Positions 1,818-20,460 of a stretch of 21,824 nt of DNA are shown here, piece after piece (within the stretch, counting starts at the first letter, position 1; the number at the start of each line of letters is the position of its first letter). The stretch spans positions 1 through 21,824 of the forward strand of contig LSSK01000175.1 of the NCBI GenBank assembly GCA_001969505.1, given 5' to 3'. Source of the stretch: Zancudomyces culisetae (Eukaryota > Kickxellomycota > Harpellomycetes > Harpellales > Legeriomycetaceae). The notes under the pieces were generated by a model that did not search any database, was not told the DNA's origin, and was given only the letters and a program-made list of their open reading frames with translations. The translations under genes were made by a program, and so were the position numbers.

Positions 1818-4800
1818 ATGAAGAGACGATCAACCTCTAGAAGCTCACGATTTGACGAATACCCTTTTCAAGAAATCGGAACTAGTAAGTCACTTTTTTC
1901 TTTTTCTTGTTTGGTTTGTCGAGTTATACATATATATATATATATACATTTGGATGTCTTTTTTTTATAAAAAGAAAAACCAACAACAATGAATAAAAAC
2001 ACCTGTTATAAATATAATGACAGTACTGTTATTTTTACCTTGTCATTTTTTTTTCGGGTTGCTTTGTATATATTCGATTTTAGTTCCCTTTTAAAATATA
2101 TGAAGAAAGAAAAAGGAAGAGTGATAGTGAGAGTTAGAGTGAGAGTGAGAGTAACAAGAACAAAAAAATCGAACGATGATACTTTAAATTGAATATGCTT
2201 AAAAAAAATTAAAAAAAGATTTTGTTGGTATATTTTTCAAAGTATACTTGCTCATTTTGACAAGGAATTACATGGGCGAGGTGCTTTTTTTTTAAACACT
2301 TTTTTTGTACGTGAGTGTATGTGTCAATGTGTCAATGTGTGGATGTGTGGATGTGTGGATGTGTGGATGTGTGTGATTATCCATTGATTTTTTTCTGGGA
2401 ATTACTGGTTTAAAGAATGGATTAACTTGCGAAATAATCAATATGCTTGGTATTTCTAAATCCCCAAGAGTTAAAAAAGTACATCAAACCAAAAAAAACA
2501 AAAAAACATCCTTTAAAACCCCAAGTTGTCCTTGAGAAATGACAGGAGAGTGTGAGTGTGAGTGTGAGTGTGAGAGAGTGAGAAAAAGAGACAAAAAGTT
2601 GATTGAGTTTGTGTGTGGATCCATGAAAACCGAGTGTTTTGGTATTGCAGGTTTAATTAATTTAGAGATGAAAATTGGTATTGACACGTCCTTTGCTTTT
2701 TTATTTTTATATTCATTTTTGGATAATTTGGTGGTTATTGGTAAACTCAGTTATTCCAAAAACCTATACCGTATCTATAAAAAAAACATAAAAAAAATCC
2801 CCCCGCTAATTAAAAAGAGTGATAATCACGGATAAAAGTTTTGAAACTCAATTTTGTTAGTTTTAAAAGTTTGGAATTACGTTAAATTTCGTAATACCAA
2901 TTGAAAATACGAGTTTTATAGCGTCTAATCCCGCCTTTATAAACTAAAACAAAAACAAAAACAAAAGCTAAAACGAAAACGTAAACGTAAACATAGTATA
3001 AAAGTGGAAATAAAAAGTAAAATAATAATAATAATAATAATATATAGGTTTGGAGTTTGAAGAGGATATAATTAGTCAAGTAATTGAAAAAAAGAAAAAG
3101 TCAAATCGGTTGAAATATATTGTAGGCCTATTGGTGGTAATTCTGGTACTAGGAGTATTTATAAACACAACAAACAAACAAAAGATGACTAGCCACAAAA
3201 GTCAAACTGCAAGCAGAGTTGAGGAGGTAGAGGACAGAGAAATCCTTCCAGCATCTGTCAAGCCCGTTCATTATGATTTGAGTTTGACGCCAGATCTTGA
3301 AAAACTGGAATTTGAGGGACAAGTAGCCATTGACCTTGAGGTTAAGGAAGCCACCGACAAAATAGTGTTGAATTCCAATGAGTTGACAATCAAACAGGTC
3401 GTAGTGGAATCAAGCAGTGAAGGACAACAGACCAAAACACAGGAAGTAGCAAAGGGTAAGTACGATGTGGATCCCGAAATGGAAAGACTCACCATCCAGC
3501 TCGATGAAAAGTTGCAAGTAGGAAGCAAAACCGTGTTGAAACTCAAGTTTTCAGGTGTACTAAACGACTTGATGGTCGGGTTCTACCGAAGCAAGTATAC
3601 CGATGGCCAGGGTAATGAAAAAAACATGGCAACAACACAGTTTGAACCAACTGATGCACGACGAGCATTCCCATGTTGGGACGAGCCAGCTTTAAAGGCC
3701 ACATTTACAGTGACACTGCATGTGCCAAAGGGACTCACTGCCTTATCAAACATGGAGGTGGAAAGTGATCAGGAAGGTAGTAACGGATTGCGAGAAGTTC
3801 GGTTCGAAAAGACACCAATAATGTCAACCTATTTGCTAGCATTTGTGGTAGGAGAATTGGAATATATCGAGGCATATACCAGTGGAAAATTCAACGAGAA
3901 ACCAATCCGATGCCGAATTTACACACCGCCAGGACAGAGTGAGCGAGGACAGTTTGCATTGGATGTAACAGTTAAAGTATTGGAGTACTTTGCAGAGATC
4001 TTTGGAATAGCATACCCACTTCCCAAGATGGACCAGGTAGCAGTACCAGATTTTGAAGCCGGTGCCATGGAGAACTGGGGATTGGTGACATACCGCACAA
4101 TAGCGCTATTGGTAGACGAGAAAAACAGTGGATCACGAGCCAAACAGCAAGTAGCAGCAACAGTTAGTCACGAGTTGGCACATCAGTGGTTTGGAAACCT
4201 GGTAACTATGGAGTGGTGGAGCGAGCTGTGGCTTAACGAAGGGTTTGCAACATGGGTTGGAAACTTGGCTGTGGATTATGTATTCCCAGAGTGGCAAACA
4301 TGGACTCAATTCTTGGTTGATGATTACTCGCGTGCACTGACTATGGATTCGATGCGATCTTCGCATGCCATCCAAGTGCCTGTCAAACGACCAGCCGACA
4401 TTAGTCAGATTTTTGATATTATCTCGTACTCCAAGGGTGCCAGTACAATTCGTATGTTGAGTGCGTATTTGGGACTGGATACGTTTTTGCAAGGTATTCG
4501 CTTATATTTAAGCAGACACAAGTATGATAATGCCTCAACTGATGATTTGTGGGCTGCACTTTCAGAGACTTCAGGCCGTGATGTCGCCAAGTTTATGAAA
4601 TTGTGGACTAAAACAGTTGGATATCCTCTGCTGACTGTCTCAGCTTCAGAAAACAGCACCACCAACAACAACAGCATTACAGTTACACAATCTCGGTTCC
4701 TTTCTAGTGGCCATGCCACCCCAGAAGAAGATACTACTGTCTGGTGGGTTCCATTGTTGATGAGCACTGGTGTTGATGGAAGTAGTGGTGGCCAAATTGC

Positions 4801-5890
4801 AGACGCTGTTTTGTCTACCCGTTCCGCCGAAATCCCACTTCCTGCAAACTTTACAAACGAATGGTACAAACTAAACACAGGAACCGTCAGTTTGGTGCGA
4901 GTCAAATACCCTGATGCCGCAATCAGCCGACTATCTGCAGCCATTGAACAAGGCAAATTGGCATTGAACGACCGTATTGGTCTAGTGGCAGATGCTGGTG
5001 CTCTAGCTTATTCAGGCCATAGCAAGACCAGCCATTTCCTGACCCTGTTGCTATCATTTAAGGATGAAGACAATCTAGTTGTATGGCAAGAAATCGCTAT
5101 TCGTCTCGAAGCACTCATGAGCGCTTGGAATGAAGAACCCGATTCCACCATCGACAAACTCAAGAATCTGCAACGTTCGTTGTTTGCTGGTCTAGTTGCC
5201 CGTGTCGGCTGGGAACCAACTCCTGGCGAAGACTCGCTGACTTCTCGACTTCGATCGCTAGCTATCCGCGCTGCTGGAATGGCTGGCGACCAAGCCATCA
5301 TTGACGAAGCAAAACGCCGCTTCAACCGATTCTTGGTTGACGACGACTCCTCAGCTTTGCATTCCGATCTGCGTGCCCCTGTCTTTGCTCTAGCTATTTA
5401 TTACGGCGGACTTGACCAATACAACCTGGTCAAAAACTACTACCTCAACACTTCTTTGCCAATGGACCAACGCATCATTGCTCTCAACAGTCTGGGCTCT
5501 ACCAACAACCCCGACATTGCCAAACTTACCCTTGACTTTGTCTTGTCTGACCATGTCCGCAGCCAAGATCTGTACAACGGTCTTCTCTATCTTTCTACCC
5601 ACAAAAATACCCGCTCCCTACTATGGAACTGGTATACTTCCAATTACGAAATGTTGCTTGATCGTTACCGCGCATCCATGGCCAGCTTGGGTATTATGGT
5701 CAAAATCTGTGCTGGTGAGTTCAGCTCAACTGCCCAAGCCGATCTTGTCTCTGCTTTCTTTGACGACAAAGATACTTCCAAGTTCTCTAGAGCTTTGGAT
5801 CAGACTCTAGAACGCATTAGAGCTAAAGCTGCTTGGGTATCTCGTGATCGTTCTGATGTTGACTCTTGGTTGGCCTCCCATAACTATTAA
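1818..5890 (+). CDS. Membrane-anchored M1-family zinc aminopeptidase, two exons
   Basis: Removes N-terminal residues from peptides using one zinc ion. Model: exon 1 is 1818-1884, with ATG and 22 codons plus one base; the intron is 1885-3047, with donor GTAAGT and acceptor TATATAG; exon 2 is 3048-5890. Phases match and give 969 aa. The uninterrupted frame in exon 2 has no upstream ATG, so exon 1 is needed for the anchor. Visible features: a short basic cytosolic tail, KKKK then one membrane segment at about residues 46-62 (type II topology), the M1 N-terminal domain from about 95, GAMEN at 361-365, zinc motif HELAH at 397-401 with third ligand E420 in NEGF, probable catalytic Tyr483 (SYSKGAS), and an ERAP1-C-like helical domain after about 600. 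Yeast Ape2/Aap1 and aminopeptidase N belong to this family. Length and motifs are intact. An in-frame ATG at 3185 (residue 69) could give a soluble 901-aa form. The gene is convergent with the next one. Confidence 0.93.
2318..2376. repeat. GTGTCAAT/GTGTGGAT minisatellite inside the intron
   Basis: Octamer repeats: two GTGTCAAT-type units followed by four or five GTGTGGAT units, within the aminopeptidase intron. Confidence 0.8.
2547..2580 (+). repeat. Tandem GTGAGT hexamers inside the intron
   Basis: Several consecutive GTGAGT units, each a perfect 5' splice-site consensus, followed by GAGAGTGAGA. A related GAGAGT/GTGAGA tract lies at about 2121-2156. Confidence 0.75.
2997..3004 (+). promoter_or_regulatory. 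TATA box near the 3' end of the aminopeptidase intron
   Basis: TATAAAAG, 44 nt before the acceptor and about 180 nt before the in-frame ATG at 3185. It could drive a short transcript for a soluble enzyme lacking the membrane anchor. Evidence is motif and spacing only. Confidence 0.3.
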
Positions 5891-5924
5891 TTTACTTTAT
5901 TTTTTCTCTCTTTGATTCTATTTT

Positions 5925-5975
5925 ATTTTATTCTATTCTACTCTATTCTATTCTATCATATCCTATCCTATCCTA
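5925..5975. repeat. CTATT/CTATC pentamer repeat in the aminopeptidase 3' UTR
   Basis: About ten imperfect pentamers (TTCTA, then TCCTA) directly after the stop codon. Confidence 0.75.
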
Positions 5976-5992
5976 ATTTACCCCTTTTTAAA

Positions 5993-5998
5993 AATAAA
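5993..5998 (+). terminator. AATAAA poly(A)-type signal of the aminopeptidase gene
   Basis: AATAAA lies 103 nt after the TAA at 5888-5890, in the short convergent intergenic space before the next gene's stop at 6097. Confidence 0.45.
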
Positions 5999-6096
5999 TA
6001 TTCTCAAAATCCCTCTCGTTTCTCCTTTCTCTCTCTTTCCCTCACAATCTCCTCCTTTCGCTTTTATTTTCGCTTTTATTTTTAAATTTTATTTTT

Positions 6097-6456
6097 TTAT
6101 TGTTCGTTTTCTTTTCCTTTTTGCTCTCCACTACCATGTTGCTGGTAATAGTATCCTGCTGGAACCTTTAAATCCAATTCTTTAACCTTTTGTCTTCCTG
6201 CGCCTCCACCGATACCACTGTTTCCATCTGTAGGAAGAACTTGTTGTAGATAGTCACTGAATTTCAATCCGCCATATCCAATTCCCATCATTACCAATCC
6301 AAGCATAATCCGATATTTGGGTTGAACCGCCTTGTATGTTTTCCAAAATCCAATTCCTCCTTCGCTTACATTTACCTTACTCTCCCCGGGAATCGGTTTG
6401 GATTTTATATTTTCGTTTTGGTATTTGCCATTACCTTTTGCCTTGTATTGTTTCAT
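6097..6456 (-). CDS. Small conserved-type fungal single-pass membrane protein
   Basis: 119 aa. A basic, polar N-terminus of about 35 residues is followed by FWKTYKAVQPKYR, one membrane segment at about residues 50-65 (IMLGLVMMGIGYGGLKF), then SDYLQ, a Gly-rich linker and a charged tail ending in KGKENEQ. The pattern of a short KxxxPKxR lead, a hydrophobic helix and an (L/F)SD-type end resembles small uncharacterised fungal proteins often predicted to be mitochondrial. That resemblance is from memory of the family and is not tested. ATG at 6456 is the first in frame. The stop is 207 nt from the convergent aminopeptidase stop. TTTATT tracts at 6061-6100 can serve as its 3' signals. Upstream lies (TTTATG)n at 6468-6486. 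Function unknown. Confidence 0.7.
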   Translation of the reverse strand: MKQYKAKGNGKYQNENIKSKPIPGESKVNVSEGGIGFWKTYKAVQPKYRIMLGLVMMGIGYGGLKFSDYLQQVLPTDGNSGIGGGAGRQKVKELDLKVPAGYYYQQHGSGEQKGKENEQ

Positions 6457-6719
6457 TTTTCTTGTATGTTTATGTTTATGTTTATATTTTTCACTTTTTC
6501 ACTTTAAAACTGATTTGTATTAGAGATTTTATTTATAAATACAATCAAGTTGACAAGTAAAAAAAAAATATTTTAATATCACAAGATTCTAATTATCTAA
6601 ATCTATTAATTATCTACTACCCAGATTAAAATATTTTCTCTCCCGATTTCTCACCCTACATTACCTTGCTCAAAAAATCGTTAAACATTAAACAAGAAAT
6701 AACAGATATTAGCCTTTAT
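6457..6719. other. Promoter-side intergenic region of the 6097-6456 gene
   Basis: AT-rich, with a TTTATG repeat at 6468-6486 and no gene seen. It ends where similarity to the downstream duplicate begins. Confidence 0.4.
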
Positions 6720-7140
6720 AAGGTTTCAAGTTCTCTTTATTATTTTGATTTTGATTTTTTAAAAGATCTACTTTAGATATAATTCAACTCATTGATATTG
6801 ACTTGAAATTATTTGCTTAGTTTTATGGCAATAAGGCAATTCATATAAACTATTATTTAAGAAATGCTTTTGACTAAGAATTAATATTGGTCAAATGTTT
6901 GTATACGGATAAGCGGAGATGACAGTTTTATTAAATGGTAAAATGCATCATAAAATAAATACAAAAAACCCTAAAGAAAATACATCTCCAAAATAATGTA
7001 AACAGTTAAATCGTGTCTCCGATAGTACTTTACAGGCTGGGATTGCTCGTAAAATGTCTGTTCAATCCTTCGTTATGCAAACTATTGACTTTATTGTCCT
7101 TTAACTCCTTTTTCTCGAATTTTTCCTGGGGACGAGTATT

Positions 7141-7555
7141 TTAGTCGATAAATATACCTTGTTTCTCATTTTTCCAGTTCGTTAAACTTTGCTTATCGTA
7201 TTTGGCCCTTAGTTCGAGTAGCTTTAATTTCGACTCGATTCTGAGCTGTTTATTCATTCTCTCACTTCTCATTTTCTCAATAACGTAGTCTTTGTAAAAG
7301 GATACGAGGAACAGGAGTATCACAGGAACCTCGATTATTAATACTTCGCTATAAGTGAAAAAAAACTTGATAGTATTGAATAAAAAGTCAAATATATATA
7401 ATACACTAGGTCTTATAAATATTATAAAAAATATGATGTTTGTTAGCCTCTTTATCGTGGTTGACGATGATCTTTTTATACTTGAAGAGGTTGCCATATT
7501 CAGTACCGGTGAAGTTTTTATTCCAGTTGTAGATATATTCTATACTTGTTAATTT
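7141..7555 (-). CDS. Copy A: last two exons of a spliced membrane-protein gene of unknown function
   Basis: Model: exon 7407-7555, intron 7349-7406 (58 nt; donor GTGTAT, acceptor CACTTATAG), last exon 7141-7348. The joined frame contains NWNKNFTGTEY and FKYKK, then a hydrophobic segment (VLIIEVPVILLFLVSFY) and a Lys/Arg/Glu-rich helix with KLKLLELRAKYDK to the stop. The support is comparative. Copy B shows the same residues in the same frame upstream (silent changes TAC/TAT, ACT/ACA, AAC/AAT), and its own intron of different length and phase restores the same downstream frame. The simple ATG frame at 7497 reads the upstream exon in the wrong frame and is probably an artefact. The true start lies further upstream (candidate exons at 7700-7760, 8345-8605 and 8849-8995) and was not resolved. 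Family not recognised. Confidence 0.6.
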
Positions 7556-7752
7556 CTTTTAATAAACAGATCTGAAAGGTGTTTTATCAAATATAGTGGT
7601 CTTTATTATCATCTATACAAAGATTAACAATTTTTAAAAATGGATAGTGCGTTGAATGAGCAAATTTATTGGATTTGGTAAGAAATTATAAGATGGAAAT
7701 ACTTGTTAAATGTGATACTACAAAGGCAGTATAATTGTTTATATTGTTTTTT

Positions 7753-7806
7753 TTGTGGTGCTAGCATTGCAGTGAAAGTTTAGCATTAGTAAATTCTTCA
7801 TCAAAG
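7753..7806 (-). other. 54-nt block identical in both duplicate copies (copy A)
   Basis: Identical to 16641-16694 without a mismatch, although flanking DNA has diverged. On the minus strand it holds TTTACTAATGCTAAAC and then ATGCTAG, which reads as branchpoint plus 3' splice site for an exon starting at 7760 (CAC CAC ..., with in-frame similarity in both copies). Alternatively it ends a 43-codon frame (7761-7892) that is indel-free between copies. Confidence 0.55.
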
Positions 7807-8344
7807 TCAGTTTTATTTATTTTGCCAGTGTTGAAAAAAGGAATTGAAAGTAAAACAACTTGAAAACTAGCTATATTTTTCAAACAACGGTCTTACATTT
7901 GGTAGATTATTATTACAGTTTGATGTAATTTATCCTGAATGCCAAGTATTTTTATTTATAGTTTCTTTTTGTTGAAATGTAAATAAGTCTTTGGGTATAG
8001 TTTTAAATTAGTAATATGCTGTGGTTTTGATCTCTTGAAACCCAAACAAACAGTTTAGTTGTAAAAATAAAGAATATTGATGTTTAAATATTAACAAATA
8101 AATACCAAAAATACTAAATAATTGAGCTTCATTTTAAATACAAGACCTAAATCTGGTTTTAAGAGATAATAGATGGTTGTAACTCTACACACTGATTTTC
8201 TTGTACGAGTTTTTTTCACTTTTCTTTACAAGTGTTATTTAATAAAGATCATTTACTTTGTATATAAACAATATAATTTCTGTATCAAGATTCAGTTTTT
8301 TATGTCAGATATCTAAAAGAAAACACATAACCTAGTTATTGATC

Positions 8345-8605
8345 TTAGAGTTCATGTACAAACATCCAATTACCAATATGAGTAACTCTAAACCAAAACA
8401 TAATTGGATTTTTGGTTTTATAATAGAAGCTTAATTTATGCTTATACTCAGGTTCTGTTACACACTTTTTGCATCAATTTATTTATTATTAAATTCAACA
8501 AGGTTTAGCTCACTATATCAGTCATTTAAGCTCTACAAAAATTATAAACTCACCATCTAGTTCTTTGTTCGATATACTTTCTAGGAATTCTAAATATGTT
8601 GTTGA
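8345..8605 (-). CDS. Copy A: two candidate upstream exons of the duplicated gene
   Basis: Model: exon 8554-8605, intron 8455-8553 (99 nt; donor GTGAGT, GCTAAAC branch motif, acceptor AACAG), exon 8345-8454. The splice sites and the GAGCTAAACC motif are matched in copy B. The joined reading gives FLESISNKELD, EPEYKHKLSF and then MFWFRVTHIGNWMF. Copy B keeps the frame on both sides of the intron (LFESMVHRALD, EPEYQHKLS, MFWFRITIIGNWMF). The downstream limit at TAA 8345-8347 is the end of the open frame. A donor may lie earlier, for example GTAATT at about 8376. Probably the N-terminal half of the gene ending at 7141. Function unknown. Confidence 0.4.
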
Positions 8606-8848
8606 CTATAATGAATCTAATTATGGTATATATATTTACCGAATTTAAACCCCAAACACACTAGAATTTCGGTAGTCGTAATATCATTTTTTTTCTTTCT
8701 TTATATTTACCTTTTTCGTTAAATTCCCTCGTCCAACAAAACTCGATTTATCTTTTATAAGGTACCATTTCAACTAGGCCTTAACTTAAAAATTATATTT
8801 TTCGAAAATATCAGGAATTTGTCTAGAAACATTAATATCTTCCCACTA

Positions 8849-8995
8849 CAACATATTAATGTTGTTCTTGTCAGTATTTTTCATGGAAATTATCAAAAGT
8901 ATGTATTTGTTATCACCGAATGCATATTTACTTGCAACTATTACATTTGAGGACGGAAGGAGTAAGGTAGAGGAAACAATTATATCAACACTTTT
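8849..8995 (-). other. Candidate 5' exon of copy A
   Basis: A 49-codon frame on the minus strand between stops, with protein-like composition (SSTLLLPSSNVIVASKYAFGD) just upstream of the 8554-8605 exon. The matching place in copy B (17730-17942) also holds an open frame, with loose similarity around a D-x-x-Y pattern. No ATG at its head and no clear donor, so the assignment is weak. Confidence 0.25.
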
Positions 8996-9458
8996 TTATT
9001 TTCTTTATAGAAGGTCACTGTTAAATAACTGTATCTGACCTTGATATTTCATCTTGCAATTTATTATAGATGGTTTGTTTTTGAGTATTTATAACATCAG
9101 ACATATAAAATATTTAATTTTTTACAATAGTAAACGCCTAAATATACGAAACTATGAATATCTAAAAACAAATTAGCCGTGCGAGTCGTGCGAGTTTTGA
9201 TTATGTTAGCTGGTAAGTATGAAACTTTATGTCCAGCAATACACACATAAACTAAATTTTAAAGCTGCAATAACTAGACTATAAAAGTATTACTATTTAC
9301 TAATACAATACTACACTTATTATACATAGTACTCTGATAACATAAAAAAAGTATAAATACTTATAAATTCCTTGTAGAATTCTTTTTTCAAAGCTTCAAA
9401 AACCTTGAGAAAATTATCTTTGAGAAAAGGAAACGTTTCTTGAAATTATAAAATAGAA
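8996..9458. other. AT-rich spacer with one good donor site
   Basis: No gene can be supported. A GC-richer patch at 9178-9212 reads on the plus strand as a short hydrophobic frame (VRVVRVLIMLA) running into a GTAAGT donor at 9213. It could be a signal-peptide exon for the downstream secreted-type frames, with ATG at 9203 the only start. Confidence 0.25.
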
Positions 9459-9686
9459 AAAAAAAAGGTAGCAAGCGCACTCTGCGTTACTTCAAGATTT
9501 GCAGCCGGAACTGCGATTTCATACACTCAGATAACCGATGCAAAAGAAGAACCTGGCTACAGCACCAGTATCTGTTATAAAGGTCATCATCACGGACTTC
9601 AACTTAATGAGCTTCATCTTGAGAATCTCTACAAATATACTAGGAAATTCAAATATTTAAAACGAGTTTTTATAGAAATCAAATAA
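9459..9686 (+). pseudogene. Small secreted-protein-like exon or relic
   Basis: Open frame ending at TAA 9684-9686, with clearly non-AT-biased codons in 9468-9630. It begins with a signal-peptide-like hydrophobic stretch (VASALCVTSRFAAG) and later has STSICYKGHHHG, echoing the CY motif of the two neighbouring secreted proteins. It lacks an ATG. A 10-A run precedes it, and an acceptor AAAAG at 9467 is possible. The +1 frame reads FKICSRNCDF, resembling the CRxKNC motif of the family. Either it is an internal exon or the remnant of a broken gene. Confidence 0.3.
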
Positions 9687-9935
9687 AGAAAAAGTAACAA
9701 AACCAAATCGTTACTACAATTTACCAAGTATTTGTTTTGCGCGCCTTGATGGCACTAAGCCTGGTGCTGGTTCAGTCACGTTTTATGCTGTAATCAAATT
9801 TCTAGAAAAGGCTGTATACAAACGGAGAACTTTGCTCCCACAGCAAACGCGCAGTCTGAGCTAGATGAACAAGCAATGTCAGTATATTGGTTCAATTCAA
9901 GATTTCTTAGTTATTTAAAACTTACCAGCCTTTAA
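9676..9935 (+). pseudogene. Frame-disrupted small secreted cysteine protein gene
   Basis: The frame open from 9676 encodes LPSICFARLDGTKPGAG and SVTFY up to about 9786. The reading then continues sensibly only one base over, in the frame CCNQISRKGC, TENFAPTANAQ, and a C-terminal MSVYWFN before TAA at 9933-9935. Across the shift, the cysteine spacing and the tail match the family seen at 12726-12968 (CY, then C with six to eight residues to C, ENF, and a W/Y-rich end) and more loosely 10649-11080. The shift falls next to a TTTT run at 9781-9784, so a one-base loss or a sequencing error is equally possible. No start codon or signal peptide is attached. Confidence 0.4.
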
Positions 9936-10648
9936 CATGTTTCATATTTATTCTCATAGACAATATTATTTAATTAAATATGATTTGGTAGTATCTATGT
10001 TATTCTATTCATTAATACTGTGTACTTTTAGCCACTTTTATTAATATGGCTTTTTTTAAGTTTTTTATAGTATTTCATCAATCTAAATAAATAAACGAGA
10101 TCAATATACCTACTTTTGTAACCGAATGATATTGGGATGATTTATTATGAACGATTATACTTTCATGTATGACTAAGATACAACCAATGTAAACCAGTTG
10201 TGCTAAAATTATTGACAGTTCTTATTAAGCCTACCTTACCAAGGGTGAAACTAGTGTAACAGTTGATGTATTATTGAATATAAATGTTATAATTAAATCA
10301 TAGCAATCATAATATCTTATATACTTATATTAATTCATAGAATTGGAGATCTTATACAGAGTCTAGTTGTGTGCATAAAATTAAATAAGAAAAATCGATA
10401 TTTGTGCTGCTTGATTTATATAGAATAGAACTTTCACTAATGTGGTAATAGTAATCCAATGCTCAAATTTTTGTTACATCCAGGGCCAGAGATGTTTTTA
10501 CAACCATCTAATCAACCTACGAGTATGGCATGTTTGATTTTTACATTTTTTGATAACTTTATTCAAAGCAGTTTATTTAAAGATTCACTAAATATCTAAA
10601 TAAGCAAAATAAATTAAACTAATTGTTTCAATTTCTAGGATATGTTAG
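9936..10648. other. AT-rich intergenic region
   Basis: No coding frame, RNA gene or repeat could be supported in this stretch. It is the 3' side of both neighbouring genes. Confidence 0.4.
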
Positions 10649-11080
10649 TTAAACAATCCAAGCATAGGATTTTGAATAGCCTTTATTAACATACCACCAT
10701 ACATCATCAATCTGGATTCCTGGGTTTATAAAGGTATAACAGTCAGTTGAACAATTTTTATCTCTGCAAGCCATAAAGGCAACCCTTTTGACACCTGTTG
10801 CACTAATTCTTACTGATGTAAAATCGGGTGCTGCGTAACATCTATTTGGTTCGGGAGTGAAACTACCTTGATAGCCTCGATAGTAGCTGTAATGCCATAA
10901 GTTGATCTTCATACTACCATATTTGAATATCGCCGGGCTAGCACCAAGTCCTGGAAATCCTCTTTCACTTGTTGTGTCTAGGGTTTGGTTCTGTCCGCTC
11001 TGTGGCAAAGCCGAACTAACTACCAGAGTGGTGAAAATGCTGAAAATACTGAGGATGCTGAGAATTGTTGACTTGATCAT
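10649..11080 (-). CDS. Small secreted cysteine-containing protein, intact
   Basis: 143 aa from an uninterrupted frame. Residues 1-25 form a clear signal peptide (MIKSTILSI..., hydrophobic core, cleavage near VVSSA|LP). The mature part is about 118 residues with four cysteines: RCY at about 82 and CRDKNC plus DC at about 105-114, a spacing that allows two disulfides. It is rich in W/Y and has no second membrane segment, so it should be exported. The product resembles the deduced product of 12609-12968 (MxKST signal start, CY, CRxxNCxxxC, W-rich end). TATAAAAGG lies 93 nt upstream at 11173. Small secreted fungal proteins of this kind include effectors, killer-type and self-recognition proteins and beta/gamma-crystallin-like folds. 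None can be assigned here. Confidence 0.8.
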   Translation of the reverse strand: MIKSTILSILSIFSIFTTLVVSSALPQSGQNQTLDTTSERGFPGLGASPAIFKYGSMKINLWHYSYYRGYQGSFTPEPNRCYAAPDFTSVRISATGVKRVAFMACRDKNCSTDCYTFINPGIQIDDVWWYVNKGYSKSYAWIV

Positions 11081-11172
11081 TTTCGGTTTTTGTATTCCTT
11101 TTTCAATGAGGTTTGGATTGCTGAAATTCAGTTGAATGTGGTGTAATGTCTTTCAATATCGAAAAAATAGTT

Positions 11173-11181
11173 CCTTTTATA
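11173..11181 (-). promoter_or_regulatory. TATA box of the secreted-protein gene
   Basis: TATAAAAGG on the minus strand, 93 nt upstream of the ATG at 11080, in a suitable position for a fungal promoter. Confidence 0.55.
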
Positions 11182-11760
11182 CTTTTCACCTACAATGAAT
11201 ATGCCACTAACCATTTTAGTAGAAGTTAGGCTTAAATAATTGTATTGACATGTTATTATGTCCATCATCCTAAATATAATATGTGTGTATACTTCTCCCT
11301 TAGTTAATCTGATATTATTAATAGATACTTGACTTCATTGATTTACCCAATATAATGAAACTAGTATAGCTAACATCAGTATGACGAGTTTATATTTAGT
11401 AAACTTTTGTATAATAATCTGTGTAGCGATCGATAACTAATTATAGATTTTTATAAAAATATAGTAAACTAGGACTATCTGCGAGTAACATCAACATATG
11501 AATATCACATTGTGTGATATATTACACTTTGATTTGATAATGATTCTATTACAACTTTGCTTATTATACCAAAATGCTTTTGAATAATTCATTAGTGTAA
11601 GTGCTGCCTTCCTACAGGCTAGAAACTTAAATTTGCTACTCGTCTTTTACAATGCTCTTTGACCTTGTTAGTTAAGTGGTGTATTCTTAGGGGAGAGGTC
11701 TAAAAACGTAATTTTAGGTTAACAACAAATTTGTAATTATTACCAATCTAATTATTAAAC
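11182..11760. other. AT-rich intergenic region
   Basis: No supported gene or repeat. Confidence 0.35.
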
Positions 11761-11878
11761 TCAATGACTGCCTCTTGTCGGGAAGAATGGAAATAAGGAG
11801 TAATATTCCTTGAAATTGCAGGAGCCGATCACTTTGTCGGTTTTACAACGTTTCCAAGACACCTAATGGTATGTGGGT
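11761..11878. other. Coding-like island, strand undecided
   Basis: A GC-richer patch with two competing readings. Minus strand: after a CATTAG acceptor, a frame 11872-11761 reads SWKRCKTDKVIGSCNF and more to TGA, with a C-x8-C spacing like the neighbouring secreted family. Plus strand: an internal exon 11822-11878 bounded by TTGCAG and a canonical GTATGT donor. Both cannot be right, and no partner exons were found for either. Confidence 0.25.
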
Positions 11879-12608
11879 CTGTTTTCTCTTTTTAATTGGA
11901 AGTTTGTGGAATAGTGTTATTTTTAGACGAACTTAAAATGTCGCTCTAAATCAATCTTCTCAAGTAGTAAATCGATTTTGAATGTGATATTTATTTATTT
12001 TGATTACATAACCTTATTACTTGTTGGGGTTAAGTGCTTTTAAGGTTCATAGTTGAGAAATCAAATAATAAAAACAGAATGTAATATTATGTAATAATTA
12101 CAAATGAATTTGTATGTTAGTTTGATAAGATTATGTCAATTCAGAAAAAATTGCTTAACTATCTTATAAAGTACACTTGTTCTAGTAAACCACCACAATT
12201 TGTCTAAAAGACGTAAAAAAGTTGTCAAAGGTTAAAATTAGAAGCTATATATTACATACTTGCAAAAATATATCACATCCTAGTACATTGACTTTCAATT
12301 CGATACTCTTGATTGTCGAACTGCTCTTCACCTCTCTAAAATTAGAATGCTGTTACAAAGTAGTTAAAAATAACACAGTTAGATATCATTAATACAAGCT
12401 AAAGATAGTTATAGAAAAAAATTTATGATGAGGAAAAGTATGAAAGGTTCAAAGTATCACTGGAATAAAAAAATATCAACTTTGGTATTCCATCAAGCAT
12501 CACAATAAGACATACTCATACTATTATTCATCTTCATAGTCATCGTCATTTCCACACTGCATCAGTGCATTAGCCTCTCACAATTTTCTTTAAAGTCGAG
12601 TAACAAAT
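11879..12608. other. AT-rich intergenic region upstream of the second secreted-protein gene
   Basis: No gene supported. The last 100 nt (CATCAGTGCATTAGCCTC and a TCTTT tract) look like promoter and leader of the gene starting at 12609. Confidence 0.4.
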
Positions 12609-12968
12609 ATGGTAAAGTCAACGCTAGCACTTCTTGCGTCCGCAGTTGCCGCATTTCCAGTAAACGCCTCATTCCAAACCCTACACGCCATAATATTCTA
12701 AGACTATCGTTTTTCAGGTGCTGTCGTGAACGAATTCCAAATGGTAAAACACCAATGTTATAGCATTAACCAGGGTACCTCAGCACAATTTCTTGACCCC
12801 ACAGATGGATCAGGAGTAATGTTGTTATGTAGGCAAAGGAACTGTCAGGGTGTATGTACAGCTAACGAAAATTTTATAAGTACAGGTCTGTGGAATTTCC
12901 CAGAAGATCTCAAATCAGGCCCTCTCTCAATGAAATGGATAGCATTTGGTCAGGCTGCTAATGAATAA
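12609..12968 (+). CDS. Small secreted cysteine protein, signal-peptide exon plus main exon (junction unresolved)
   Basis: ATG at 12609 starts a textbook signal peptide (MVKSTLALLASAVAAFP). A likely intron 12660-12717 follows (donor GTAAAC, acceptor TTTTTCAG, 58 nt). The main exon to TAA at 12966-12968 encodes NEFQMVKHQCYS, then CRQRNCQGVC, ENFIST and a W-containing tail (MKWIAFGQ). It shares the MxKST signal start, the CY motif and the CRxxNCxxxC motif with the protein at 10649-11080. Oddity: joining at these sites leaves exon 2 one base out of frame, and every GT in exon 1 is in phase 0. Either a one-base change has broken the gene, the base call is wrong, or a non-standard site is used. Read without splicing, the signal peptide runs to a stop at 12699-12701. 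It may be a pseudogene. Confidence 0.5.
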
Positions 12969-13205
12969 GATTTCTAACTCTTTAAATTGAAATAATCTAT
13001 TACTTTAGAACCAAGTTTAGTTGGTAGTAAAATTGTTTTTATTTATCTAGAACTTGTGCTTGAATAAAGTGTCAATCACATCACCAAAGCTGGTAAACAT
13101 ATCCTGCTTTGAAATGATTATAACTGCGATCTACTCACACTAAGGTAAATATATTTTAGTTTGAACAAGAATGTTTTCATACTGCAACGAGTCTACTGAG
13201 CACCA
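12969..13205. other. AT-rich intergenic region between convergent genes
   Basis: No gene. It is the 3' side of the plus-strand secreted gene and of the minus-strand gene ending at 13206. Confidence 0.35.
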
Positions 13206-13694
13206 TTATGTCTGGTAGGTAAAGAATATCAAATAGTATATATCAAACCTATTCCTTTCTGCCCCATTAGATACTCCATACCCACAGGCTATTGGTTTGA
13301 AGAGTTTATTTCTGCTCTGAGTCAATCTAAGATAATAATCCTCGCTCGACAGACACCATTCTAAAATTTTACTGTGCTCTGCTTGACCAAGGATAGTATT
13401 TTGTCTTGTCTCTTGTTTATAGGTAGAGTAACCAGCCCTTGCGACTCCTCTCCAAGGATTCCACCCACAATAAATTATTCTACGCTTGTCTCCCCCTACT
13501 CTCATTACATTTCCCTTTTTCAGTTTTTTGATAACTTTGTGATGTATTGTTCCAAATACGCTTTCTTAACTGAAACTCATCTATTTCTGCCAAAAATTAT
13601 GATCTATTCGGTTTTCTTACACCAAAAAACGACCAAGTACTGATAGTTTACTTATTACTGGTGTAGTTGAGTATCTTTTTAGAGCTTCATCCAT
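13206..13694 (-). pseudogene. Two-exon gene of unknown function, disrupted by one frame change
   Basis: ATG at 13692-13694 opens exon 1 (13623-13694, 24 codons, MDEALKRYSTTPVISK). A 53-nt intron (13570-13622, donor GTGTAA, acceptor GAGTTTCAG) joins in phase to exon 2 at 13569, reading LRKRIWNNTSQSYQKTEKGK and CNESRG. This frame hits TAG at 13480-13482. A second frame, one base over, is open through the same exon and continues for about 100 residues to 13206 with strongly protein-like composition (IIYCGWNPWRGVARAGYS, and CGYGVSNGAERNRFD near the end). The natural changeover is at a GGGGG run (13494-13498), suggesting a one-base deletion or a homopolymer error. The protein is Tyr/Arg/Cys-rich with no membrane segment and was not recognised. 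The plus-strand frame over 13374-13643 is its shadow. Confidence 0.4.
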
Positions 13695-14272
13695 TTAGTC
13701 AAACACCCTGAATTTAATCTTAATTTACTCAACATTGATAATATTTACTAGTTTGTTATGATTTACGCTACCCTCAATTTTGATTTTCCCTCCCTTTATA
13801 TAATATACTGCAAATCTTATTCTCCTTTACAATCAAACATGTATCTCTCAACTAAAATAACAGTAATTTAAACCATTATCATCACGTACTCTCGCCTAAT
13901 CAAACCATATTAACTCAGTTCTCACTCCTATTCTGCGATTTTTTTTACTTTTTTTATTAAACAAAGACACTTAAATTAATATATTTTAGCAAACATATTA
14001 CATAACAATAATTTTTTAGGCACCAAGAATATTTATCCATGAGCAAGTGCCTAATTGTTTGTTTTCGTCTAATTCATTCCATATCTTTTCGTTATTTGTT
14101 TTTATATATTCTATCTCGTGTTAAATAATTTAAAACCCATCAAAAACTTATTAAATACATTCTATAAACGTGTAGCGAGCAAGTTTCGTATACTGCTGCG
14201 ATCAATATCTTTTGATTTTTTATGTATTCGTTCGTATCTGAGGAAAGTTAATTTTATTGAAAAAGAGTATGG
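13695..14272. other. AT-rich intergenic region with an isolated promoter-like start
   Basis: CCCTTTATATAA at about 13792, a pyrimidine-rich leader and ATG at 13840 look like a plus-strand promoter, but the frame ends after ten codons and no following exon was found. Confidence 0.3.
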
Positions 14273-14503
14273 TTATAGTCCAGATAACTGAACGGCTTTT
14301 TTAACTAAACTTAACGAAGGTAGCTGAATATCAATTAACAATTGTGTATTATCATTCAACGGTTGTAGCAATGAATGGTAGTTCAACCCCGTTCTTTTTA
14401 CAAAATCTAAAAAATGAATCCAAAATGCTATCTTATAACCAGTTCCTATAACTGGATTGATTATCCTTGTCTCACCCTTCAGATAGCATAAGGGCATTAA
14501 CAC
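14273..14503 (-). CDS. Short open frame of unknown function
   Basis: An uninterrupted frame of 76 codons. The first ATG in frame is at about 14497 (MPLCYLKGETRIINP). It then reads GTGYKIAFWIHFLDFVKRTG and a hydrophilic tail ending VKKAVQLSGL. Composition is protein-like, with W, G, C and charged residues in a very AT-rich setting. No family was recognised, and it has no signal peptide or certain membrane helix. It lies 109 nt downstream of, and on the same strand as, the small gene at 14612-14821 and could be a later exon of it. Confidence 0.3.
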   Translation of the reverse strand: MLMPLCYLKGETRIINPVIGTGYKIAFWIHFLDFVKRTGLNYHSLLQPLNDNTQLLIDIQLPSLSLVKKAVQLSGL

Positions 14504-14611
14504 CTTTTTTCTATTTTTGAGTTTTCGCTTTCTTCAATTTAAAATAAACAGCTAGTATTTTATATCTTATACTTACTATTTGAGGTTAGTCGGGTCTACT
14601 GAGAATCACTG

Positions 14612-14821
14612 TCAAATGGGGTTGGGCGTAACTCCATCTTCTGTCGGTTTCTTCATTTGTAAAATGATTTGATCCACAATGTCAGCAAATGAATCATGTG
14701 ATTTTTCGGAATCTACTTTCATAGAAGTTGCTCCCGAGCAATCACTATCAGATTAATATTAGTACTCACATTTAGCTGTCTGGGTCAATGCGGTTCTTAG
14801 TTTACCCATCAAGTCTGACAT
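14612..14821 (-). CDS. Small gene model with two coding blocks and an apparent 25-nt intron
   Basis: ATG at 14819-14821 in a good context (ACAAACATG) begins MSDLMGKLRTALTQTAK (exon 14770-14821). It runs into GTGAGT, a TACTAAT branch-like motif and ATAG within only 25 nt (14745-14769). The next block (14612-14744) reads DCSGATSMKVDSEKSHDSF, then ADIVDQIILQMKKPTEDG to TGA. Both blocks are soluble and acidic or charged. As with other genes in this island, the junction is out of phase by one base, and 25 nt is too short for an ordinary fungal intron, so a deletion within the intron or a pseudogene is likely. Product not recognised. Confidence 0.35.
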
Positions 14822-15359
14822 GTTTGTGTGAGATTTTAATAGTTTTCTTCTTTATCTTTACACTTGATATTTATTAATTAGTCGTAGCACTATTCCAAAT
14901 AAACTTCTTAATTATTCTAAACCTGGATTTCTGTTCACAATTGTTAGTTATTTATTTTCGTATTTTTCTGATCAAAACTATTAAAGAGCTAAGGAATCCT
15001 CATCGAGTCTTCCTTTGCTTATATATATACTATTTCATTAAACCCACTAAAAACTAATTTAATTAACCTATGTTTCATATTGTTGTACTGGGTTGTTGCC
15101 TGTGGTTTCGCTCTTATATTCGTTTTCGTATCATTATTGTTCATATATTTGAATGTTGATTTACTTTAATCTTTTTAATTGCATTTTTCATTTTCTAATT
15201 TTTTTTTATTATATAATTTTTTTTCAATTGATATAATTATCGTTGTATTTTCAGTGATCAACTTTTAATATAATTTTAGTTGATTGATTATGAGTAAATA
15301 AAATATTTATTTCAAATCGTTTAATCCCTAACTACATCGGGATACACACAACAGGACAT
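14822..15359. other. AT-rich intergenic region
   Basis: T-rich, with no gene or repeat supported. It ends where similarity to copy A of the duplicated locus starts. Confidence 0.35.
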
Positions 15360-15920
15360 TAGTTTATATAGTTGGATTTAATATTTAAAAAGATTTACTT
15401 TGAGATAATTTAACCCAATTTATGTAAACTTGAATTGTTTGACTAGTTTTATGGTAATGGTTTAATAAAGAAAATAATACTACATTTAGGAAAGACTATT
15501 TGATTGATAATGAATTCTGGTACACAAATTTTTGTACCTGGATTACTGATGATAGTTTTTATTAAAAGATGATTTGAGCTTTAAAACAATTACAAGAAAT
15601 CCTAAAGAAATTATATTTCCGAAATGTATACACTCTACGTTGTGCCTATTTTCTACTACCAAGCTTACAGAAGTGTAGTTGAACTAATTGCTAATATCAC
15701 GATTATTATTTTTGCTTTAGTACTAGGTTTATTTAAAAAAATAAATTCGTATTAATACTAAAATCTAAATAACGAAAAAGTAAAGTAAAAATTAACACCC
15801 GTTCCTTCTTCTCCGGTTCCTTACCCTCCTACATGTGTAAAACGTACATTATGATTGTTGTATAAAAACCACATAAGGTTGGCCGAAAATGGAAATTCAT
15901 GAAATCAAGGGGTCCTTAGC

Positions 15921-15943
15921 GAATGTGTAAAAATTACACATTC
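15921..15943. other. Perfect inverted repeat spanning the copy-B stop codon
   Basis: GAATGTGTAA and its reverse complement TTACACATTC are separated by three bases. The right arm includes the TAA stop (15934-15936) of the minus-strand gene, so its mRNA could form a 10-bp hairpin across the stop. Copy A lacks it. Confidence 0.6.
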
Positions 15944-16408
15944 AAATCGCCTTCGAGTTTCTCCATCTTTTGACCATCGGGATCGAGATTATCCAATAGG
16001 TTCCTTTCCAGAGCTAATGTTCTGGAATCGTTCTTATTATATTTAAGATGTAGTTCAATTAGCTTTAATTTGATCTCTTGTTTAATCCGGGATTGTTCTT
16101 GTTTACTCCGGGATAAATATCTTCGGTATTCTAAATAAAAATACCCCAACGAAATCATCACCAGTAAAATTGGATATTCTACCGCAATTAATCCTAGTAA
16201 AAATTTCATATCCATGTTTATTAATATAAAATTGAAGATAAAAATCAACTTTAGATTTAAAAATATTACTAGTGTAAAGTTTATTAGCCACTTTATCGTG
16301 GTTGAAGATGGCCTTTTTATACTTATGATGGTTGTCATATTCTGTACCGGTGAAGTTTTTATTCCAGTTATAGGTATATTCTATACTTGTTATTTTCAGT
16401 ATACTAAG
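15934..16408 (-). CDS. Copy B: last two exons of the duplicated membrane-protein gene
   Basis: Model: exon 16270-16408, intron 16194-16269 (76 nt; donor GTAATA, acceptor TTTTTACTAG), last exon 15934-16193. Splicing joins NWNKNFTGTEY, HHKYKK and FNHDK to a hydrophobic segment (AVEYPILLVMISLGYFYLEY). A basic and acidic helix follows, with KLKLIELHLKYNK and a 30-residue acidic extension absent from copy A. The intron sits at the same place as in copy A but splits the codon differently, and both introns restore the same downstream frame, which argues strongly for real splicing and retained coding. The ATG frame beginning at 16338 and the frame at 16103-16291 each represent only one exon read through the intron. 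The start lies upstream and is unresolved. Family not recognised; one membrane pass predicted. Confidence 0.6.
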
Positions 16409-16640
16409 CTGACTTTAAACAAACTTGAAGATAAATGCAAAATATAATGAACTTTATTGTTATATATCCAAAGTTCAATAATTTTATAAATGTATAAAGC
16501 ATTTATTCAATATAAATGAATATTTCAATGAACTCTTTGTGAACTGAATGAAGAAATGTATTGTATATGTAGAAAAAAAAGATGGAATTTATGATTCCAG
16601 TGATGTTCCAAACTTAGAATAGTTGTTTAGATTGATTTTA

Positions 16641-16694
16641 TTGTGGTGCTAGCATTGCAGTGAAAGTTTAGCATTAGTAAATTCTTCATCAAAG
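16641..16694 (-). other. 54-nt block identical in both duplicate copies (copy B)
   Basis: Matches 7753-7806 base for base and is followed after a diverged 20-nt spacer by a second identical block (16715-16743 versus 7827-7855). Its role is discussed under copy A. Confidence 0.55.
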
Positions 16695-17280
16695 ACAATT
16701 TCATCTTTTTTGCAAGTGTTGAAAAAAGGAATTGAAAGTAAAAGAATTTGGTAACCAACACTATTTTTTAAACAGTGGTCTTAATTTCATATACCAATAC
16801 TCAATTGTAAAATGTTTCTTTTTGTTAAAAGAAAATCATCATAGTAATTGACTATATCACTAAATTAATCAATAAATTGTGATTCTGTTTTCTTGAAAGC
16901 CAAAACAGTTTAGTTGTAAAATCCAGCGGATTGTTTATGTATTAAACAGCTATTAATAAATACCAAATAATGCTATGTGTTCAGCTCTATTGTAACTACA
17001 AATCCCAAAGCCTAGTTGAACAGTTACTACAGATGGTTATACCCCTAAAAGCATATTTGATCTTACGACTTTTTTTTGTTCCCCTTTACAATTGCTATTA
17101 TTTTGAAGAACCATTTACTTTGTATAAAAACAAATAGTTTATGTTTTGAAATACAGTTCTTTATGGTAAATACCCCCCAAAAAACATATAACCTAGTTAC
17201 TGCTCTAGAGTTAATGCAAACATCCAGTTACCGATAATAGTAATTCTAAACCAAAACATAATCGACTTTTCGGTATGATT

Positions 17281-17454
17281 CTATATGCTTAATTTATGCT
17301 GATACTCAGGTTCTGTCATGCTTTTTTTACAATACCAATTTATTCATTATTACATTCAACAGGGTTTAGCTCACTATAGAGATTGTTATTAAGCACTACT
17401 AGAAAGAGAAAACTCACCATCTAGCGCTCTATGTACCATCGATTCAAATAGTCT
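17281..17454 (-). pseudogene. Copy B: counterpart of the upstream exons, with an in-frame stop
   Basis: Exon 17418-17454, intron 17313-17417 (105 nt; GTGAGT, GAGCTAAACC, GACAG) and the following exon correspond one-to-one with copy A. The frame reads LFESMVHRALD then EPEYQHKLSI, and meets TAG at 17281-17283, where copy A reads TAT. Beyond it the similarity to copy A resumes (MFWFRITIIGNWMF). Either this copy is truncated here, or the exon ends before the stop in both copies. Confidence 0.4.
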
Positions 17455-17729
17455 TTAAAAAAAGTACTTTATGCTTCATTTGAAGATCACAAAAATTTCT
17501 ATACCTCTTTTCTAGGTTCAGATCTCGAAACTATTACTTCTCTTTTGATCCGAGTAGGACATAACTTTTCTTTATATCCCACTAATATTTAGCTGTTTAT
17601 TTTGTCAAGTTATTTTGTTGAACAAAATTAGATCGGCATTCTCAAATATAGTCATTCAATCAACTCTTATATACAAAATATTGATTTTCCGAAAATACTA
17701 GAAGTTGATCTAGTCAACATTATATTGAA

Positions 17730-18474: not shown

Positions 18475-19863
18475 TCAAAAGCAATATGTTACTACAGTCG
18501 ACGATATCGCTAGTAGCACTATCCCCGCAACCGCATCCAAAATGTAATGGTTTCCAGTAATTACAATACAATACACTGTCGCAATAGGGTATAAATACAC
18601 TAGTGCAATAGCCACTATTCGGAGTCTAAGCATCCCACCGATAACTGTTGCCATATACTTACTGATACTACCGCCATTCCGATTAAAACCTAACATTCTA
18701 GTTGAAAAGGATTTAGATTGGGCGCGGAATATCGCATCCACTAGTGAATGACACACCATTGCTACCCATAAAGCTACCATGGTGTGTTGGCTGGGCATTG
18801 CTGCATAAGGATTGTTGAGTGCCTGCACTGTTTGATCCTTCCACGAAAAGAATCTGGATCCATATTTATCAATTGTATCTATAAACCCAAACATCGGAAC
18901 ATTCCCGGAAATCTCCATCATCCCCTCGCCGTCTCCAATGACCATTTTTCCTAATGTGTAGATACATCCACCCAGTCCAATCCCATCAAGATTCATTGCA
19001 TCACATTCCGACAATAGTCTTGGCGGCATTGTTGGAATCAATATGAATCCCAGCACTGAAAGAAATTCAGCCAGTACAAACACCGACACGTAGTAACGAT
19101 ATCTATTTAGGGCATTTTTGACACTAAACAACTTGCCAATCTCTATATCTTTGAAATTTTCCACTCGCTGATTCCTATTTCCATACAAAGACCCACGCTC
19201 CAACTCTGGTGATGTTGGTTCATCCAATTGTCGGTATCGATATGTATTTTGGTTGCCATTTAATATATTTATTCCATTGAAAAGCTGGCCTTCCTCTTTC
19301 TCCTGGTGGTCATCATAAAACTCTTCTTGCTCCAACAATTTGCTGTTTGTCATGCCGCTATCATTTCTGCGGCTTCTAGGGCTCTTAATCACAAAGGCAT
19401 CATTCCCTTCCTCAACCATTTCCATAACCTGAACATTGTCTACCTCCATCTCAATCCCAATCTGTGTTTCGATTCGGCCTTGCTCCCATATTTTCCGTCT
19501 AATCCGTTGTTGCTGTCGATAGTACGCCACTCCGAATGCAAATCCCAAAAATAATAATGTAGTAATGCAAACTGCGGGATGTGCAAATGCATAATAATCG
19601 TTCCAAAACTTGATTCGCGATGTTACTTTCTCCGGGTTCTCACCACTCAATGCCCACTGCTGGATGCTTTCCTCAACAAACATTCCTAGGGCCTTTTCGA
19701 TCTCTGTTATCCGTACTCCGTTTCGTATCGCCCTCGCCTTCATATTGGTAAACTCTGTTGTTTTTCCCAGCAGTATTGACGTTAGGAAGTTTGTCATAAA
19801 TGCTGCGGCTATCACCAATATGTTTAGTATTACCAGTATTATGCCTCTAGTTGTCATCTTCAT
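18475..19863 (-). CDS. PAP2-superfamily membrane protein, inositol-phosphorylceramide-synthase-like
   Basis: 462 aa, intact and without an intron. PAP2 enzymes transfer or hydrolyse phosphate-linked lipid head groups. The arrangement here resembles the Aur1/PAP2_3 branch that makes inositol phosphorylceramide-type lipids. Visible: membrane helices at about 7-33 and 88-113, a long charged cytosolic loop at about 115-250 (acidic, with SPRSRRND), a helix at about 256-280 running into IPTMPPRLL, the motif AAMPSQH with His360, helices around 365-380 and 410-430, and TGNHYILD at 437-443 with His439 and Asp443, then a last helix. The His-His-Asp triad expected for this family is present. Substrate is inferred, and a lipid phosphatase role is possible. 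ATG at 19863 is the first in frame, with a second ATG two codons later. It likely acts in the ER or Golgi membrane. Confidence 0.8.
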   Translation of the reverse strand: MKMTTRGIILVILNILVIAAAFMTNFLTSILLGKTTEFTNMKARAIRNGVRITEIEKALGMFVEESIQQWALSGENPEKVTSRIKFWNDYYAFAHPAVCITTLLFLGFAFGVAYYRQQQRIRRKIWEQGRIETQIGIEMEVDNVQVMEMVEEGNDAFVIKSPRSRRNDSGMTNSKLLEQEEFYDDHQEKEEGQLFNGINILNGNQNTYRYRQLDEPTSPELERGSLYGNRNQRVENFKDIEIGKLFSVKNALNRYRYYVSVFVLAEFLSVLGFILIPTMPPRLLSECDAMNLDGIGLGGCIYTLGKMVIGDGEGMMEISGNVPMFGFIDTIDKYGSRFFSWKDQTVQALNNPYAAMPSQHTMVALWVAMVCHSLVDAIFRAQSKSFSTRMLGFNRNGGSISKYMATVIGGMLRLRIVAIALVYLYPIATVYCIVITGNHYILDAVAGIVLLAISSTVVTYCF

Positions 19864-20460
19864 GTTGCTATTACTCTTATTTTGTTTTTCTTTTCTTTTT
19901 CTGTTTGCTTATGCAGCTTTTACCAGTAATAAATTATTAGAGCTCTTTCGCTTCACTCCTTCGTCTTGGTTTTATTATCATGTACAGGACTTCTGCTTTG
20001 TTTGTTTTCTTTCCTCTTTTTTCACTGATTATAAACCCCTAGCGCCCAGTTCCGCCCACAGATCCGCTACAATTACTATTTTTCCCGTTCAAAAGTGTCA
20101 AACAAAAGTTGACAAGTCGCCAAGATATATGACTCAACTAGAAGGGTGTATAAATATATGGCGAGAAAGGCTATCACAAAACTATGTTAAAACACACGGC
20201 TGCACCTATAACTACTATCCTTTTCTGAAGCAAGTAGTTCTTGTAATTTCTTTGCAATATGTTACTGTCTTCCAAATTAAATTTATATTACCAATACCAA
20301 TTATCCTTATCTTTTCTTTTTCACGAACCTGAATATATATGTTTTTATTATTCTAAACACAAATTATACCCAAAAATTTTTGAACATTTCTTGGTATTCA
20401 TGTTTACTACAAAAATTTTTATTAAGGGTTCCATAAAAAAAAAGATCACGGATTTATTTG
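19864..20460. other. Upstream region of the PAP2 gene
   Basis: The plus-strand frames here (up to 20332 and 20465) are mostly antisense to the PAP2 N-terminus or Phe/Leu-rich chance frames. A GC-richer patch (about 20038-20075: CCTAGCGCCCAGTTCCGCCC) 180-210 nt upstream of the PAP2 start, and a TATATTTATA on the minus strand at about 20145-20158, are plausible promoter elements. Confidence 0.35.

Follow-up and report, generated by a model that had tools for sequence, protein, structure and literature searches.

In Pneumocystis, members of the major surface glycoprotein (MSG) family combine a conserved upstream sequence with a variable coding part, and recombination reshuffles them. The family has one expression site, and its silent copies are devoid of the upstream sequence. 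Another multi-copy system is provided by the wtf genes of fission yeast, which encode small, lineage-specific membrane proteins that evolve rapidly and undergo gene conversion. Fungi also possess expanded families of small secreted proteins, including orphan candidate effectors with a crystallin fold (PMC10462633). Here, we describe a locus of Zancudomyces culisetae, a fungus of mosquito guts described as an obligate symbiont in the gut of larval aquatic insects (PMC12611240), in which two related segments, A and B, are probably paralogous members of a dispersed module that was expanded by segmental duplication and ectopic recombination. This is a new family pair in a familiar kind of system.

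The window analysed corresponds to the entire contig C322 (21,824 nt, 0 N). Genome-wide searches were conducted on a Z. culisetae assembly that comprises 859 contigs totalling 23.1 Mb and is perhaps a subset of the genome, so that copy counts are lower bounds; the genome was described in 2018 as 28.70 Mb in 1,954 scaffolds (PMC5954228), and a HiFi assembly of the species has 26 contigs (PMC12611240). BLAST comparison of the window with itself (low-complexity filter on, E ≤ 1e-3) revealed only two non-trivial matches, both corresponding to the A/B pair. The longer one aligned positions 7438-8560 with 16279-17424 in the same direction, over 1195 columns and with 70.7% identity (538 bits, E 3e-154), and the shorter one, formed by the downstream segments (Table 1), was in the same direction and collinear with it. 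The top score in 50 dinucleotide-preserving shuffles was 34.6 bits. The two collinear stretches are thus far above chance beyond low-complexity sequence, as in a segmental (paralogous) duplication. Consistent with this result, a preliminary description of the stretch had proposed a direct, diverged duplication; the diagonal that it called for extends beyond low-complexity AT sequence, since both matches persist with the filter on. It had also reported at least seven collinear anchors, and seven ungapped ones (D1, D3, D4, D6, D8, D15, and D16), with spacings of 8631-8888, were recovered in the list of direct-repeat families, which covered 20 of 27. The same minus-strand gene does occur in both segments (frames at 7141-7539 and 15934-16380), and these bracket secreted-protein genes, here of the crystallin type (10649-11080 and 12702-12968). 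The term "spliced" found no support, as in each copy the ORF reads without a break from its conserved ATG to its stop codon, with no need for an intron. As A and B have diverged by about 30% and the window is free of N, the pair is not one copy assembled twice, an argument that says nothing on the chimeric copy of contig C320 discussed below.

Table 1. Features of the A and B segments and of the intervening region in contig C322.
Feature	Position	Strand	Remarks
Copy A downstream homologous segment	6736..6994		Pairs with 15363-15625; also present in C320 and C476
Copy A two-helix membrane-protein ORF	7141..7497	-	118 aa; ATG at 7497; open frame from 7539
Copy A shared non-coding upstream region	7498..8560	-	Block HMM match 7561-8180
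Copy A decayed remains of a crystallin-type secreted gene, divergent	9302..9783	+	9302-9428 weak DNA match; 9691-9783 protein match
Secreted beta-gamma-crystallin-like gene P0001	10649..11080	-	143 aa
Second crystallin-type secreted gene, C-terminal exon	12702..12968	+	Profile match E 5.9e-9
Dispersed degenerate repeat	13206..13565	-	32 further matches (E ≤ 0.01), all with two or more internal stops
Third dispersed repeat family	14462..15033	-	35 matching pieces, including the window's own
Copy B downstream homologous segment	15363..15625		70.6% to 6736-6994, E 1e-20
Copy B two-helix membrane-protein ORF	15934..16338	-	134 aa; ATG at 16338; open frame from 16380
Copy B shared non-coding upstream region	16339..17424	-	Block HMM match 16416-17042; C320 homology reaches 18015

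The membrane-protein ORF carries no gene annotation in either window copy, and the two products share 41% identity over the open frames (35% when counted from the ATG). Ten matches to this ORF were found in the genome, including the two of the window (weakest E 1.3e-6), and a profile search added a further, weaker one in C476 (E 3e-5). Once contigs with at least 99% identity over long stretches were collapsed (C857/C695, C25/C155, and C476/C471), eight distinct members remained: A, B, C320, C857, C25, C567, and two in C476. The family thus comprises at least eight members in the Z. culisetae assembly, and its earlier interpretation as a gene-family expansion was right. One of the two C476 members has stops inside the match, and its conserved N-terminus is not open. 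The seven rows of the alignment, in which C857 and C695 count separately, all have a conserved N-terminus followed by two hydrophobic regions and a charged tail, and they share an invariant start ATG. A search over 5.8 billion proteins, including the annotated models of Z. culisetae itself, returned 38 candidates and no relative at E ≤ 0.001; Pfam gave nothing above cut-off and PDB sequences no match up to E 1. The structure predicted from the two window sequences only was mostly one long helix (pTM 0.34) and was left out of later analysis. Pairwise dN/dS ranged from 0.29 to 0.84, with 18 of 21 mutually non-independent pairs falling between 0.46 and 0.64. The bootstrap interval (200 draws) was entirely below 1 in 16 pairs and reached 1 in the other five (B-C857, B-C695, A-C320, C857-C695, and C695-C567). 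When only alignment columns 1-35 were considered, several pairs had a dN/dS close to 1 or higher, and in the remaining columns synonymous sites were saturated in six pairs. Overall, the ORF looks to be under weak purifying selection.

Comparisons with the rest of the assembly revealed that A shares 84.8% identity with C320 over 7567-6659, and that B shares 85.3% with C320 over 17756-16796 and 77-78% with C857. Since over long stretches each of the two segments is more similar to copies elsewhere than to the other, they do not derive from a single duplication within the window; of the initial duplication reading, the expansion stands and the single within-window event does not. Much of the highest-identity portion is non-coding upstream DNA rather than the gene. 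A, B, C320, and C567 have in common roughly 1 kb of sequence preceding the ORF, and only the nearest ~700 bases of this region align well in C857 and C25. The ORF-proximal part, from about -700 up to the start codon, occurs in all six aligned copies, and a ~660-base profile of the block matches the A, B, C320, C567, C857/C695, C25/C155, C476/C471, C340, and C34 loci. The C340 and C34 contigs end within the block, and the C471 frame runs into N, a long open frame in this contig having turned out to be a run of N. The profile also matches C483 (E 2e-47) and C544 (3e-49), where the block runs directly into a crystallin-type secreted gene. An ATG within the block aligns with the start region of these two genes; the corresponding short frame of A and B, however, ends with no GT splice site. 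The block was also considered as coding exons of the gene on the minus strand, a reading rejected because stop codons and indels not divisible by three vary from copy to copy.

The upstream and coding parts of the copies exhibit discordant relationships. C320 and C567 are 92-100% identical across the twelve bins that span -1500 to -300 (only 40 columns in the first), with differences of 1-8% in eight of the twelve, and 36-41% identical in the coding part past about codon 33. Between C320 and A, identity is 96% over the first 100 coding bases, 67-75% further on, and 53-85% upstream, and between A and B one 100-base upstream bin reaches 92%, as opposed to only 40-51% in the coding part past about codon 33. 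Among informative four-taxon sites, those from -1200 to -400 favoured C320 with C567 by 20 to 4, with 1 for the third pattern, while those from -150 to +420 favoured C320 with A by 43 to 14, with 9 for the third. The contrast gave a Fisher p of 1.2e-6, the intervals having been picked after viewing the identity profile and the sites being treated as independent. This discordance would be explained most simply by gene conversion or ectopic recombination close to the gene start. The main alternative, for C320 itself, is that the chimera could be a misjoin of the draft assembly. The 1-8% difference from C567 in the eight upstream bins counts against a misjoin.

As in the Pneumocystis MSG family, a conserved upstream region is thus associated with a variable coding part, in an arrangement apparently reshuffled by recombination. 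Unlike in that family, each intact copy has its own upstream region, and the products are small membrane proteins, not surface glycoproteins. Silent copies devoid of the upstream sequence were not observed, the near-ORF block being present in the six aligned copies out of six, and no single expression site was seen. The likeness to the wtf genes is one of description: small, multi-copy, fast-evolving membrane proteins restricted to a single lineage and seemingly reshaped by gene conversion. The proteins described here differ in having two hydrophobic regions only, and the comparison implies no drive phenotype.

A second family is represented by the crystallin-type secreted genes. The gene at 12702-12968 probably has a signal-peptide-like first exon starting near 12612. 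The decayed remains in copy A were recognized at 9691-9783 by TBLASTN (E 2.7e-6, 45% over 31 aa versus the C476 gene) and at 9302-9428 by BLASTN (E 1e-3 versus C320). The family yielded 23 matches at E ≤ 1e-3, and a protein database search found none outside Z. culisetae, the entries there being named only hypothetical protein. Sequence searches were uninformative: PDB matches were at chance level only (best E 0.49), and Pfam revealed no crystallin family and no shared family for 14 members at E ≤ 0.1. It was fold comparison that resolved the identity of these proteins, the predicted structure displaying a double Greek-key beta domain that points to a beta-gamma-crystallin fold. The top Foldseek match of the predicted domain was PDB 4el6 (E 2.4e-3, probability 1.00), and a viral structure library gave no match at E 1e-3. 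This PDB entry is IPSE/alpha-1, a secreted crystallin of Schistosoma eggs that has a single crystallin domain, as predicted here; with 17% identity, the likeness is one of fold only and carries no sign of common function or ancestry. The calcium-binding motif of crystallins, (N/D)(N/D)xx(S/T)S, is absent from some of them, and it was found in none of the 14 members of A2 and none of the 10 members of A3. Like the fungal secreted families outlined in PMC10462633, the present one is short, secreted, and multi-copy, with low identity on a shared fold that is here predicted. Unlike the families presented there, it was confined to Z. culisetae in the database search, belongs to an early-diverging insect-gut fungus, and is partly paired with a membrane-protein gene. 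A divergent secreted-protein gene or its remnant lies ~2 kb from the membrane-protein gene in four of the eight members. The partner is full-length in one of these four (C476/C471), decayed in A, shortened in its frame in C320, and runs off the contig end in C567. No divergent crystallin gene was detected among unspliced frames of at least 25 aa in the stretches read around the other four members.

The surroundings of the A and B segments are those of an island with ordinary flanks, namely an M1 aminopeptidase (3041-5890) and a PAP2 protein (18475-19908), both recognized in a Pfam scan of eight window ORFs. The orphan genes, degenerate repeats, and decayed gene lying between them fit the accessory setting proposed in the preliminary description. 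That description had seen no transposon; while no mobility domain was indeed found in the eight window ORFs scanned, dispersed repeats occur at 13206-13565 and 14462-15033. The former looks like a transposon relic, and the latter shares 93.9% identity with C857:1-573, where it also adjoins and precedes a membrane-gene copy. No tRNA was detected in the window, and a test for a subtelomeric setting, with a few patterns of telomere-like repeats tried on a set of loci, was negative. P0002, named AX774_g5422 of Z. culisetae, matched two assembly loci at 100% and a third at 99.3%.

In the reading that we favour, a full module would consist of a two-helix membrane-protein gene and a secreted single-domain beta-gamma-crystallin-like gene, ~2 kb apart, facing in opposite directions, and separated by a long shared non-coding region. 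Segmental duplication would have spread copies that diverged afterwards, and ectopic recombination or gene conversion would have re-homogenised the upstream region between some of them as coding parts drifted apart, which would allow separate histories for the two. Copy A would then retain the membrane-protein gene with a decayed crystallin partner, and copy B the membrane-protein gene only. Constraint on a functional non-coding element, such as a long 5' leader, an intron, or a non-coding RNA, is the rival to which we give some weight, though we find it unlikely. A 100-base stretch identical in B, C320, and C567 would fit such an element; it ends with an ATG and an adjoining GTGAGT, potentially a start codon and a 5' splice site, and in C483 and C544 the block also precedes a crystallin-type gene. 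However, the ATG-GTGAGT is present in A, at 8556-8548 on the minus strand, as well as in B, C320, and C567, and absent in C340, C34, and C476, and the region has no convincing alignment in C857 or C155. The window gave no Rfam match at gathering scores, which speaks against a known structured RNA for the block, and constraint alone leaves the discordant site patterns unexplained.

The repeated unit might also be a transposable element or be carried by one, the copies, including the membrane ORF, being independent insertions. Its dispersed, multi-copy, lineage-specific, and AT-rich nature, the degenerate repeats nearby, and the two contigs (C340 and C34) ending inside the unit are in line with this proposal, which nevertheless appears improbable: copy ends vary between pairwise comparisons, no transposase or reverse-transcriptase domain was found by Pfam in the eight window ORFs scanned, and dN/dS of the ORF is below 1 across divergent copies. 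Furthermore, the repeats listed (20 of the 27 direct families, 25 of the 31 inverted pairs) include no terminal pair flanking A or B, although degenerate ends could escape detection. A simple local duplication confined to this contig, with neutral decay afterwards and no dynamics at the level of a larger family, would account for the same orientation and the 8.6-8.9 kb spacing, but it is already contradicted by the closer copies on other contigs and hardly agrees with ORFs that remain open with dN/dS mostly of 0.46-0.64; we regard it as very improbable. Little credence is likewise given to an expansion driven by a self/non-self module, in which a toxin-like secreted crystallin would be matched by a protective or exporting membrane protein. 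The pairing that suggests it may be a single ancestral event copied along, with a full-length partner in one of four cases and four members without any, and a crystallin fold says nothing on function.

Returning to the dispersed module, both genes may be expressed, the intergenic region may act as a two-way promoter, and the membrane protein could work with the product of its neighbour, the crystallins possibly acting at the gut or microbe interface. It would be surprising if the locus proved to be a new kind of paired system, in which a secreted crystallin and a fast-evolving membrane protein share a recombining two-way promoter, with a secretion-and-protection or drive-like role, and diversify in one gut-dwelling fungal species. 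The discordance between upstream and coding sequences provides a case in which the influence of ectopic recombination, or of draft assembly, on orphan families can be tested. The Harpellales of insect guts are a poorly understood group, and, if expressed in the gut, both families would be candidates for dealing with the larval host or with rivals.

In two other stretches of the assembly (L039 on contig C483 and L040 on C544), genes of the crystallin-type secreted-protein family lie directly behind the shared non-coding upstream block, which elsewhere precedes the membrane gene, and in both of them the open frame is out of register with the nearest ATG. A further copy of this block terminates contig C340, which carries an ankyrin-repeat ORF of 1165 residues; C25 contains a possible relative, judged by eye only. 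C25 and C155, like C857/C695 and C476/C471, share at least 99% identity across 5-10 kb, and these pairs may be either uncollapsed alleles or very recent duplications.

Coordinates of the features discussed
Feature	Location	Positions	Strand
ATG followed by GTGAGT	window	8548-8556	minus
Degenerate dispersed repeat	window	13206-13565	
Dispersed repeat family	window	14400-15100	
Ankyrin-repeat ORF	L046 (C340)	4757-8254	
Possible relative (by eye)	L050 (C25)	7950-8897	

The degenerate dispersed repeat has 32 matches elsewhere, several close to contig ends and every one with at least two internal stops; a Pfam search with it returned no match. The other repeat family comprises 35 matching pieces, the window's own included, many of them sharing a contig with crystallin-type genes, and looks like a short, decayed gene together with its upstream region. 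The ATG-GTGAGT site closes a stretch with 100 identical bases in copy B, C320, and C567, and here the ATG may be the start codon, and GTGAGT the 5' splice site, of a transcript not yet recognised.
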